Positions 38,567-41,499 of a stretch of 41,499 bases of DNA are shown piece after piece. Each line of letters opens with the position of its first letter. Within the stretch, counting starts at the first letter, position 1. The position numbers and the translations under genes are program-made. The notes beneath the pieces are model-generated. The model was not told where the DNA came from. It saw only the letters and a program-made list of their open reading frames with translations, and did not search any database. Source of the DNA: Gemmatimonadota bacterium (GTDB lineage: Bacteria > Gemmatimonadota > Gemmatimonadetes > Gemmatimonadales > Gemmatimonadaceae); assembly GCA_025362095.1 (NCBI GenBank), contig JANYIJ010000004.1:1-41499 (forward strand). The letters are read 5' to 3'.

Positions 38567-39598
38567 GTGAAGATCATGGTGTTGATGGGCGGCACGTCGT
38601 CGGAGCGCGATGTTTCCCTTGCGTCCGGTCTTCGTGTGGCGGAGGCACTGCGTTCGCGCGGGCACACGGTGACCGCGGTCGACACGGTGCGTGGCGCACT
38701 CAGCGAGGGAGAAGAGCGCGCCCTGCTCGCGGGGGGCGTGATGAAAACACTGCCACCAGACCCGCTCGCGCTCGCGCGACTTTCGTCCGAAACGCTGCCA
38801 GCCACGGTTCGCGGTCTCGCCGCCACGCGCGAAACCGACGCCGTGTTCATCGGGCTTCACGGCGGACAGGGCGAGGACGGGACTCTTCAGGCGCTGCTCG
38901 ATCTCACCGGCGTTCCATACACCGGAAGCGGGCACCTCGCGAGCGCGCTCGCGATGGACAAGGATCTCTCCAAGCGGCTCTTTCGCGAGGCGGGCGTGCG
39001 CACGCCGGACTGGCTCATGGCGCCGGCGACGGATGACGAGATCGTGAAAACTCTCGGGCTTCCCGTCATCGTGAAGCCGTCCAAGCAGGGCTCGACGGTG
39101 GGACTCACGCTCGTGAAGCAGCGGGCGGAGCTGCAGGCTGCGATCGTCGAAGCGAACAAACATGACGACGAGGTGATGATCGAGCAGTTCATCGCCGGCC
39201 GGGAACTCACGGTGGGAATCCTCGGCGACGAGCCCCTGCCGGTTGGCGAAATCATTCCAAAACACGAGATCTACGACTACGAGTGCAAGTACACTCCCGG
39301 CATGGCGCGCGAGGAATTTCCGGCGAAAATCTCGCCCGCTGAAACAGCCGCCGCGCAGCAGCAGGCGCTGGCGGCGTTCAGGGCGCTGAAGCTCTCTGGG
39401 TACGCGCGCATTGACTTCCGTATGATGGCGGACGGAACATTCTATTGTCTTGAAGCGAACACACTTCCGGGGATGACGGAACTAAGCCTGATTCCCCAGG
39501 CCGCAGCCGCCGCGGGAATCACCTTTCCCGAACTTTGCGAGCGGATCGTGCAACTGGCGAAAGGTCTCAGGTCGAAGGACTCCGGAGAAACGCGATGA
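38567..39598 (+). CDS. ddl: D-alanine--D-alanine ligase
   Basis: Joins two D-Ala residues for peptidoglycan precursors, with ATP. The 343-residue ATP-grasp enzyme has MGGTSSERDVSLASG, FIGLHGGQGEDGTLQALL and GVPYTGSGHLASALAMDK, the ATP-binding LPVIVKPSKQGSTVGL, FIAGRELTVGIL and the C-terminal substrate/metal loop YCLEANTLPGMTELSL. The start is GTG 38567 (the first codon of MKIMVLMGG), two bases after the previous stop; an ATG at 38576 is less likely. Its stop overlaps the QueE-like gene. It stands outside any mur cluster. Confidence 0.95.
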   Translation: MKIMVLMGGTSSERDVSLASGLRVAEALRSRGHTVTAVDTVRGALSEGEERALLAGGVMKTLPPDPLALARLSSETLPATVRGLAATRETDAVFIGLHGGQGEDGTLQALLDLTGVPYTGSGHLASALAMDKDLSKRLFREAGVRTPDWLMAPATDDEIVKTLGLPVIVKPSKQGSTVGLTLVKQRAELQAAIVEANKHDDEVMIEQFIAGRELTVGILGDEPLPVGEIIPKHEIYDYECKYTPGMAREEFPAKISPAETAAAQQQALAAFRALKLSGYARIDFRMMADGTFYCLEANTLPGMTELSLIPQAAAAAGITFPELCERIVQLAKGLRSKDSGETR

Positions 39599-40257
39599 CG
39601 GGAACACCGATGGCAGCGGCAGCACTGGCGGGAGTTCCGGCCGGCGTCCAGGCACAGGGTGTGTGGGCCGGCCGGCGCCAGCTGTTCGTGCGCTTCGCCG
39701 GCGAAGCAGAAACCGCAACGATGTACACCGCCGCGGCGCTGGTGCGCGAACTCGATCGCCAACTGTCGCGCTCGAAGTTTCATTCGATCGCAATCGGCGG
39801 CCGCGATCCGCTCGCGAACCAGGCGTTCCTGATCGCAGCGCTCGAGACGGCGAAGCCGCCGATTCCCGTGATGCTCGACACCGATGGTCAGCGGCCGGAA
39901 ACGCTCAAGACACTCGCGCCATATCTCGCGCTCGCGCAGGTCACCGTCGATTTCTGGGTTCCGGATTCCACGCTGGCGCACGTGATCGAGTCGATCACAG
40001 AAGCGGCGCGCGCACAGTGCGCGCACGCGCTCGTGCTCTGCCCGCGCGATGACACATCGGACGGACAGGTGCTGCGCGTGATCGAACAAGCGCACGGCGC
40101 GAGCGCGGAAACTCAGGTGATCATTCATCCGCCGGTGCCGGCGGGCGAACAGCCGATGCTCGACCGCCGATGGGCGACGCTGCTCGATCAGGCCATGGCC
40201 ACGCATCTCGACACGCGCCTCGCGCTGCGGATTCCGCCGCCCGCTGGACTGCGATGA
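39595..40257 (+). CDS. QueE-like protein lacking the radical-SAM cysteines
   Basis: A 220-residue protein that aligns by eye, in order, with 7-carboxy-7-deazaguanine synthase (QueE): QAQG at 19-22 for QGEG, LFVRFAG at 30-36, IGGRDP at 67-72 for the SAM-binding TGGEP, DTDG at 95-98 for ETNG, IHPPVP for the VQPM strand and a final LRIPPPAGLR for the QTHKYLNIP tail. The [4Fe-4S] motif CxxxCxxC that should follow FAG is Glu37, Ala41 and Tyr44. The only two cysteines in the chain lie far downstream, so radical SAM chemistry is not possible in the normal way. It is uninterrupted, coupled to ddl and rhomboid by ATGA overlaps, and two genes upstream of queF. Function unknown. Confidence 0.7.
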   Translation: MTGTPMAAAALAGVPAGVQAQGVWAGRRQLFVRFAGEAETATMYTAAALVRELDRQLSRSKFHSIAIGGRDPLANQAFLIAALETAKPPIPVMLDTDGQRPETLKTLAPYLALAQVTVDFWVPDSTLAHVIESITEAARAQCAHALVLCPRDDTSDGQVLRVIEQAHGASAETQVIIHPPVPAGEQPMLDRRWATLLDQAMATHLDTRLALRIPPPAGLR

Positions 40258-41192
40258 GCGAAGACGTTCCGGTCTACGAAGTGCGCGCGCCGGAGGAATC
40301 GGCGTCGCGGGTCACCTCTGCGGTGCAGTGGCTGATCGCGGCGAGCGTCTTCGTCTATTTCATCCAGCTCGCCGTTCTCAATCCGGCCGACGTACAGGCG
40401 ACGCTCGGATTCCAGACGAAAGATCTTGGCCACCAGTGGTGGACGATAGGCACGTATCTGTTCGTGAACGGCGGCTTCTGGCAGCTCGCGCTGAACATGT
40501 ACGCGCTCTGGCTGTTCGGCCCCCGCCTCGAGGCGAAGTGGGGGTCGCGCGAGTTCGTGCGCTTTTTCCTGTTCTGCGGACTGGGAGGCTGGTTCGCCCA
40601 CCTCGTGTTCGTCCCCGGCGAATCGATACTGCTCAGCGCATCATCTGCCGTGTTCGGCGTGATGCTTGCGTCCGCCGCGCTCTGGCCTGATGAACAGCTC
40701 TTCGTCTTCGGCGTGATCCCCACGACCGTGCGCTGGCTTGTGATTTTCCTCGGCGTGCTGAACATCGTCGGCGGCGTGACCGCCACGGGAGCGCAGGGCG
40801 GCATCGCGTATCTCGCGCATGTGGGCGGGCTCGGCGCCGCGTGGCTCTATCTGCACATGACTGCCTCGGCGACTATCGACCGGCTCCGTCAGGGCGTTTC
40901 GCCGGTGCCCGACGAACCGGAGGACGTTCCGCCGCGCGCCGTGCCGCGCGCGATGCCGCGAACCCGCGCGCGCGAACGTGAGCGCGACAACATTGATGAC
41001 GTCGTCGCGCGCAGCAACGAGGCCGTCTCCAAGCGCACGAGCGCGTCGCCGCGCGCCGAGCGCGCGAAGCAGACCGAGCTCACCGCGCTCGATCAGGTGC
41101 TCGACAAGATTTCCGCAAAGGGACTCGACAGCCTCACGAGCGAGGAGCGTCGCCTGCTCAGCGAGGAATCGAAGCGCCGGAGACCGGAATAG
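40254..41192 (+). CDS. rhomboid-like membrane protein with DUF6576-type tail
   Basis: A 312-residue protein with six predicted helices in the first 215 residues. Rhomboid landmarks: the L1-TM2 segment with Asn81 (QLALNMYALWLFGPRLE), the catalytic serine region LLSASSAVFG (Ser130) and the dyad His189 in LAHVGGLGAAW. Relative to the usual GxSG the motif is SASS, and the oxyanion-hole His before Asn81 is Gln77, so it may be a slow, altered or inactive protease. The C-terminal tail holds a Pro/Arg linker and a short helical DUF6576-like domain (LDQVLDKISAKGLDSLTSEE). It overlaps the QueE-like gene (ATGA) and abuts queF. Confidence 0.85.
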   Translation: MSEDVPVYEVRAPEESASRVTSAVQWLIAASVFVYFIQLAVLNPADVQATLGFQTKDLGHQWWTIGTYLFVNGGFWQLALNMYALWLFGPRLEAKWGSREFVRFFLFCGLGGWFAHLVFVPGESILLSASSAVFGVMLASAALWPDEQLFVFGVIPTTVRWLVIFLGVLNIVGGVTATGAQGGIAYLAHVGGLGAAWLYLHMTASATIDRLRQGVSPVPDEPEDVPPRAVPRAMPRTRARERERDNIDDVVARSNEAVSKRTSASPRAERAKQTELTALDQVLDKISAKGLDSLTSEERRLLSEESKRRRPE

Positions 41193-41499
41193 GTGCCAAG
41201 CCCGCAGCTGCTGGAAACTTTTCCGAATCCGTATGCCGACCGGGATTACGAAATTTTCATGACGTGCCCGGAGTTCACGTCACTCTGTCCGCTCGGCGGA
41301 ATCGAGGGCGACGCGGACGAGCTCGCGCTGCTCAAAGGGGGCGCGCCGGATTTCGCGACGATCAGCATCACGTACATCCCGGGCAAGCTCTGCGTGGAAC
41401 TCAAGAGCCTGAAGTTTTATCTCTGGAGTTTTCGCAATGACGGAATTTTCTATGAGCGCGTCGTGAACAGGATTCTCGACGATCTCGTGAAGGTGGTGA
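41193..41499 (+). CDS. queF: NADPH-dependent 7-cyano-7-deazaguanine reductase (3' partial)
   Basis: QueF reduces preQ0 to preQ1 for queuosine. The frame runs from GTG 41193, directly after the rhomboid stop, to the window edge with no stop. Family blocks: [26 protein letters not shown] with catalytic Cys32, [31 protein letters not shown] and a final [12 protein letters not shown]. Compared with Bacillus subtilis QueF, where Cys55 and Asp62 are seven residues apart, the catalytic Cys (32) and Asp (53) here are 21 apart, a 14-residue insertion. The active-site His preceding the conserved Glu is Tyr (FYE). The short, single-domain YkvM-type form is implied. Confidence 0.93.

Follow-up and report, generated by a model that had tools for sequence, protein, structure and literature searches.

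A QueE-like protein without cluster cysteines, preserved beside ddl in Gemmatimonadaceae

QueE enzymes from two bacteria give the background for the protein addressed here. According to a report on the E. coli enzyme (PMC11142719), Q13, E15 and R27 are substrate residues; the single mutants C31A and C35A still make Q-tRNA, C38A and R27A make none, and Q13A, T40A, G94A, S136A and Q189A have a negligible effect. In B. multivorans QueE, Arg27 forms a salt bridge to the substrate carboxylate, as reported in PMC5347944. A second role, in cell division, provides a precedent for a QueE function that is independent of catalysis, as the R27A form of E. coli QueE blocks septation without catalysis. According to the same paper (PMC11142719), this division role depends on the E45-W67 region and is weakened by the mutations E15A, C31A, C35A and K66A; the QueE of B. 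subtilis and P. aeruginosa lack it. A literature search, which covered few subscription journals, found no description of a cysteine-free QueE.

The stretch of DNA analysed (the window) is 41,499 nt long and comes from the forward strand of contig JANYIJ010000004.1, assembly GCA_025362095.1, of a Gemmatimonadota bacterium (Gemmatimonadaceae). Four adjoining genes of the window are of concern:

38567..39598, + strand: ddl, D-alanine--D-alanine ligase (NCBIfam PRK01372.1, E 2.1e-104)
39595..40257, + strand: gene of a QueE-like putative pseudoenzyme, free of the cysteine motif, 220 aa (assigned from the profile, model, conservation and selection results below)
40254..41192, + strand: rhomboid-family membrane protein, with the dyad Ser and His present in this copy (Pfam PF01694, E 4.1e-22)
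41193..41499, + strand: queF (preQ0 reductase), cut by the window end (TIGR03139, E 1.7e-36)

The frame at 39595-40257 is open, its GC3 (0.76) is like that of ddl (0.76) and the rhomboid gene (0.83), and ATGA overlaps join it to ddl on one flank and to the rhomboid gene on the other. The intact frame, normal codon use and two-sided coupling of the original prediction are all borne out. Searches of curated families say little about what the gene encodes. The protein reaches Pfam Radical_SAM (PF04055) at E 0.0054, with 17.4 bits against a cut-off of 29.5, and matches no QueE model of NCBIfam at E<=10, so that the QueE equivalog cut-offs are not reached. Among 20 family members, 14 match PF04055 at E<=1 (best 1.6e-5) and one touches TIGR04508 (E 0.071). 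Against PDB sequences, phmmer with the single protein finds nothing at E<=10, and the family profile finds weak methionine-synthase-type matches alone (E 0.22-0.57).

Comparison of profiles is far more informative. A scan of contigs gave 82 relatives, of which 80 were kept: 59 family members from Gemmatimonadota or related bacteria, and 21 from other taxa, including Desulfuromonadales, Verrucomicrobiota and Hadarchaeota (23-29% identity). All 21 of the latter read QGEGxxxGRRQxFxRF and CxxxCxxC. A profile of this QueE-like clade (A3) was built from 18 of the 21 loci, with L160, L162 and L167 left out, and a family profile (A1) from 20 sequences. The two align end to end in hhalign, with E 2.1e-27 over 210 columns, which is homology to QueE at full length. 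When the comparison was repeated it scored 172, whereas 30 column shuffles reached no more than 19.4 and the reversed profile 18.8. A profile-profile match to QueE had been set beforehand as the test of the proposed relationship, and the outcome is highly significant. Since the A3 loci were picked by a pattern for the GRRQ stretch, this stretch cannot be counted as independent evidence. Trimming the N-terminal motif region from the two profiles leaves a score of 108, and 30 shuffles do not exceed 18.6. Additionally, the A3 profile, built without family members, retrieves the gene within its own genome over residues 45-208 (E 1.4e-11), a region C-terminal to the selecting motif and beyond the GRRQ and cluster stretch; the N-terminus is matched separately at E 5.7e-6.

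The A3 clade would itself have QueE function, judging from its motifs, its fold matches and its family matches below cut-off. The 18 aligned sequences reach E<=0.001 with each of the five NCBIfam QueE models, and they also match NrdG2 and PFLA; in the one member with listed scores, the NCBIfam matches lie below every cut-off. The host bacteria's normal QueE is of another type, Cx14CxxC (the B. multivorans type, 4NJG), which belongs to the same superfamily and is encoded beside queC. Its profile scores 172 against A3 and 32 against A1, and its match to the family profile is confined to a local stretch of 37 columns. The QueE-like gene as a recent duplicate of the host's own QueE was rejected, because the CxxxCxxC QueE of other phyla matches end to end. 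In a tree of 17 family sequences, 19 QueE-like sequences from other taxa (L167 and L173 left out) and 12 chosen Cx14CxxC sequences, the family forms one branch (100/100) on a long stem of 2.24 changes per column, and the Cx14CxxC QueE form a separate branch (100/100); the rooting is arbitrary. A search of 249 genomes of the phylum with the family profile, mostly with 12 candidates scored per genome, found no cysteine-bearing intermediate.

The family and the A3 clade share end-to-end homology, the core order of strands and helices, the GRRQ.F.RF run and the Gln and Arg of the substrate side. The family differs in lacking the cluster cysteines, in reading GRDP for GGEP and DTDG for ETNG, in having lost the DIK Lys and QTH, in adjoining ddl, and in its length of 220 residues, against 228-307 in A3 (L173, at 189, runs to a contig end). 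Conservation was read from 58 family sequences, in which L142 is cut by its contig end and from which L157, a deletion copy, was left out. The main motif positions in the window are as follows:

39649..39651, + strand: Q19, counterpart of the QGEG Gln (E. coli Q13), in 57/58 members
39670..39699, + strand: GRRQLFVRFA, residues 26-35, with R33 the counterpart of Arg27 (E. coli/B. multivorans); G26, R28, Q29, R33, F34 and A35 in 58/58
39703..39726, + strand: EAETATMY, residues 37-44, at the place of the CxxxCxxC loop; A38, E39, T40 and A41 in 58/58
39799..39810, + strand: GRDP, residues 69-72, replacing GGEP; G69 and D71 in 58/58, R70 in 55/58
39877..39897, + strand: DTDGQRP, residues 95-101, replacing ETNGxLP; D97, R100 and P101 in 58/58
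40126..40131, + strand: H178-P179, replacing the QueE Gln-Pro, in 58/58

The QueE landmarks on which the original prediction had been based are thus present, and the signature residues of cluster and SAM are changed. Thirteen of 42 QueE-conserved columns are kept relative to A3, including Q19, G22, the GRRQ.F.RF run, G69, L73, G98 and P179. The Cys columns, the GGEP Glu, the DIK Asp and Lys, the later VK Lys and the QTH Gln and His are changed. Neither CxxxCxxC nor Cx14CxxC occurs in any of the 58 members, none has a Cys at residues 31-50, and 53 contain fewer than three cysteines in the whole protein, i.e., fewer than a three-Cys 4Fe-4S cluster requires. On the SAM side, R212 (51/58) and P214 (48/58) stand opposite the Gln and His of QTH, and neither GGEP nor QTH is present. 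Among substrate residues, the Gln13 counterpart is found in 57/58 and that of Arg27 in 58/58, and that of Glu15 is lost. The QueE-like protein is homologous to QueE but fails the tests that define a QueE enzyme. From what is known of the superfamily, a protein without cluster ligands is very unlikely to perform radical SAM chemistry.

Which residues take the place of the lost cysteines varies with the alignment. Read without gaps, E37, A41 and Y44 lie opposite the three cysteines, as had been proposed. In the merged alignment, E37-A38-E39-T40 face Tyr-Cys-Asp-Thr and the first two cysteines face gaps, and hhalign places the cluster loop differently from both. Accordingly, the assignment of Glu37, Ala41 and Tyr44 does not stand as a fixed pairing, but the absence of the cysteines holds in any alignment. 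The Mg-binding Thr after the third Cys falls opposite the invariant T40 in the merged alignment and opposite A46 in the ungapped reading. Since E39-T40 lies opposite the Mg-holding Asp-Thr in one alignment, Mg binding may survive. The mild effects of single mutants in E. coli make arguments residue by residue soft; here, three cysteines are missing together.

Among 61 related genomes, 20 have an intact copy of the gene and G004 has a copy with an in-frame internal deletion. Among 249 sampled genomes of the phylum, at least 42 match at E<=0.01, 39 of them strongly and three weakly, and these counts are lower bounds, as mostly 12 candidates were scored per genome. All 39 strong matches lie within Gemmatimonadaceae, the family of the window itself. 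One genome holds two matches (G197:C39 and G197:C217), one of which is cut by a contig end; this may be a second copy or an assembly duplicate. The G004 copy (locus L157, contig G004:C106, 4001-4213) has lost about residues 49-193 in frame with both ends fused, and its rhomboid neighbour has Ala at the catalytic Ser.

A survey for a canonical QueE alongside had been suggested as a check, and one is present in 18/20 carriers. These are profile matches to the normal Cx14CxxC QueE elsewhere in the genome, with the sequence read in 16, and the gene adjoins queC in each of the 18, which makes the QueE-like gene a divergent extra copy. The assembly of G010, which is 61% complete and has its queC at 90 bases from the end of a contig, yielded no normal queE. 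The genome of the window (G000, 92% complete) has queF, but neither queC nor normal queE was found there; the lack of these two genes fits one gap in the assembly, the alternative being true absence. Incomplete assembly is the probable reason for the missing queE in both genomes. An incomplete queuosine pathway was also considered as the reason for the QueE-like gene and not accepted, since queC was found in 48/61 genomes, in carriers as well as in non-carriers.

Selection on the gene is clearly purifying. Across all 124 sequence pairs that share at least 68% identity, dN/dS stays within 0.03-0.40 (median 0.17), and within 0.03-0.12 for the ten closest. Additionally, 35 positions are at least 98% identical in the 58 sequences. 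The view that the gene is not decaying is therefore confirmed.

The AlphaFold2 model of the protein has a pLDDT of 88.1 and a pTM of 0.86. In a fold search against the PDB, ranks 1-6 are entries of NifB and viperin (TMq 0.55-0.62, E 3.4e-5 to 9.0e-5), at 11-13% identity; among them is 7bi7, which we take to be NifB. Both NifB and viperin are cluster-binding enzymes. Barrels of KDO8P synthase come next, with similar E and lower TM (0.27-0.41). The model is that of a partial TIM barrel of radical SAM type. In a control, the model of a cysteine-bearing A3 member (pLDDT 92.4) finds B. subtilis QueE at ranks 1-3, and the core order of strands and helices is the same in both models. The expected relation to the QueE barrel is thus supported as to its radical-SAM-like type, but not as to QueE itself, which is not among the best 50 of 1406 fold matches of the family model. 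This suggests that the finer structure of the predicted barrel has diverged from that of QueE.

The near-invariant positions are denser at the mouth of the barrel, in regions drawn by the analyst from the strands of the model. They number 14/52 there against 7/103 on the helices and the opposite face (Fisher p 0.001). Set against all other positions (21/161), the difference shrinks (p 0.03), as the N-terminal segment shows very strong conservation too. Such conservation at the mouth would argue for ligand binding over a bare scaffold. The term "repurposed scaffold" of the original prediction is borne out as regards retention, but may understate what is preserved.

Together, the strong preservation of a QueE relative without cluster cysteines makes it probable that the protein now has a new function. 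The explanation that we favour, with moderate confidence, is a QueE-derived pseudoenzyme or adaptor which is retained, non-radical and ligand-binding. Its retention as a pseudoenzyme agrees with the original prediction and is supported by the profile match, the radical-SAM-like fold, selection and conservation. A CxxxCxxC QueE relative of the GRRQ type would have lost its Fe-S ligands and SAM motifs and then been kept under strong selection in Gemmatimonadaceae, with the protein no longer performing radical SAM chemistry. The remodelled mouth, with the kept Gln19 and Arg33 and the new E39, R70, D71, D97, R100 and H178, may bind a small anionic ligand. With Gln19 and Arg33 retained, a carboxylate resembling a pterin or a 7-deazapurine is a sensible first candidate, so that the ligand could plausibly be a carboxylated pterin or a 7-deazapurine of the preQ0 route. 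Rather than supplying CDG, the protein would on binding act upon a co-translated partner, as a sensor or adaptor; translational coupling suggests that this partner is among Ddl, the rhomboid protein and QueF. As a counterpoint, the segment that contains Gln19 and Arg33 may be conserved because folding requires it, and Glu15 is lost. What is added here to the original prediction is the spread of the gene, the signature of selection, its closeness to the GRRQ CxxxCxxC clade and not to the host QueE, and the remodelled, conserved mouth. In this family a relative of radical SAM enzymes has shed its Fe-S cluster and yet been kept in well-conserved form, and it offers a clean case for studying the conversion of a radical SAM barrel to another use.

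Alternatively, the conserved mouth could belong to a working enzyme that performs a new, non-radical reaction within the inherited barrel, e.g., a lyase or hydrolase using its acid, Arg and His residues. In its favour are the density of near-invariant positions there and the new conserved polar residues that replace the cluster, GGEP and ETNG motifs of QueE. However, the protein matches no enzyme family above a curated cut-off, matches of other members are weak (E up to 1), and no reaction can be named, so that we regard a new enzyme as rather unlikely.

The neighbourhood of the gene raises a further explanation. The ddl gene lies upstream in 59/59 loci (L157 included), a rhomboid gene lies next downstream in 54/59 (four of the five others stop where their contig does), and queF lies within reach in 49/59. 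The QueE-like protein could therefore be a structural partner of the rhomboid, non-catalytic and ligand-free, in a joint membrane module often without protease activity. The ATGA coupling and the constancy of the pair agree with this, as do G002, G013 and G015, which have neither gene at the ddl-queF place. Furthermore, rhomboids beside the gene lack the catalytic Ser or His in 15/53 cases (Ser in 13, only His in two) against 0/13 in genomes without it; the Fisher p of 0.03 ignores shared ancestry, two short rows were dropped, five of the 13 controls come from other families, and three of the 15 losses are Ser-to-Thr. These losses are not phylogenetically independent, however, and the window's rhomboid keeps both residues. 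In L124 no rhomboid gene separates the QueE-like gene from the queF that follows it, and other genomes have the rhomboid alone. A ligand-free structural partner is therefore improbable.

Position two genes before queF is confirmed, but it does not give the independent support for the QueE link that had been claimed, since the cluster exists without the gene. Among the loci listed in a comparison of 17 without the QueE-like gene, ddl is followed directly by queF in at least G002, G013 and G015, and ddl-rhomboid-queF is found in at least G021 and G023. In G020, G024 and G034 a rhomboid follows ddl, with no queF in the stretch examined. The existence of ddl-rhomboid-queF without the gene makes the place near queF weak support for a queuosine role. 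Linkage to queF as proof of such a role was likewise not accepted, ddl and queF being together elsewhere without the gene. The absence from G002, G013 and G015 shows that the lineage can do without it. For annotation, the lesson is not to take a QueE-like gene near queF as a sure sign of queuosine synthesis.

The upstream peptidoglycan gene ddl also invites comparison with the moonlighting of E. coli QueE, of which the family could be a dedicated version. A block of septation by R27A without catalysis, as described in PMC11142719, and the presence of ddl in every locus would fit. However, the counterpart of the E45-W67 insert is an alignment gap in the family and the cysteines corresponding to C31 and C35 are absent, features that the E. 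coli role needs or uses; that role is also lacking in the QueE of B. subtilis and P. aeruginosa. A division role thus has only a slim chance. A decaying or chance reading frame without function, to which the G004 deletion and the several genomes without the gene might point, is already refuted by the purifying dN/dS in 124/124 pairs and the 35 near-identical positions, and has virtually no probability left.

A bolder extension of ligand binding can be drawn from the gene order, and we consider it very doubtful. In it, ddl, the QueE-like gene, the rhomboid gene and queF would form a signalling module of dead enzymes, in which a metabolite of the 7-deazaguanine route is sensed at the old active site and relayed, via a rhomboid-like protein that is protease-dead in some lineages, to the supply of cell-wall precursors. 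If true, the queuosine status of tRNA would be coupled to envelope growth. As a separate observation on ddl, no match at E<=1e-30 was found in G006, G016, G018, G027 and G077, of which G016, G018 and G077 are 97-100% complete.
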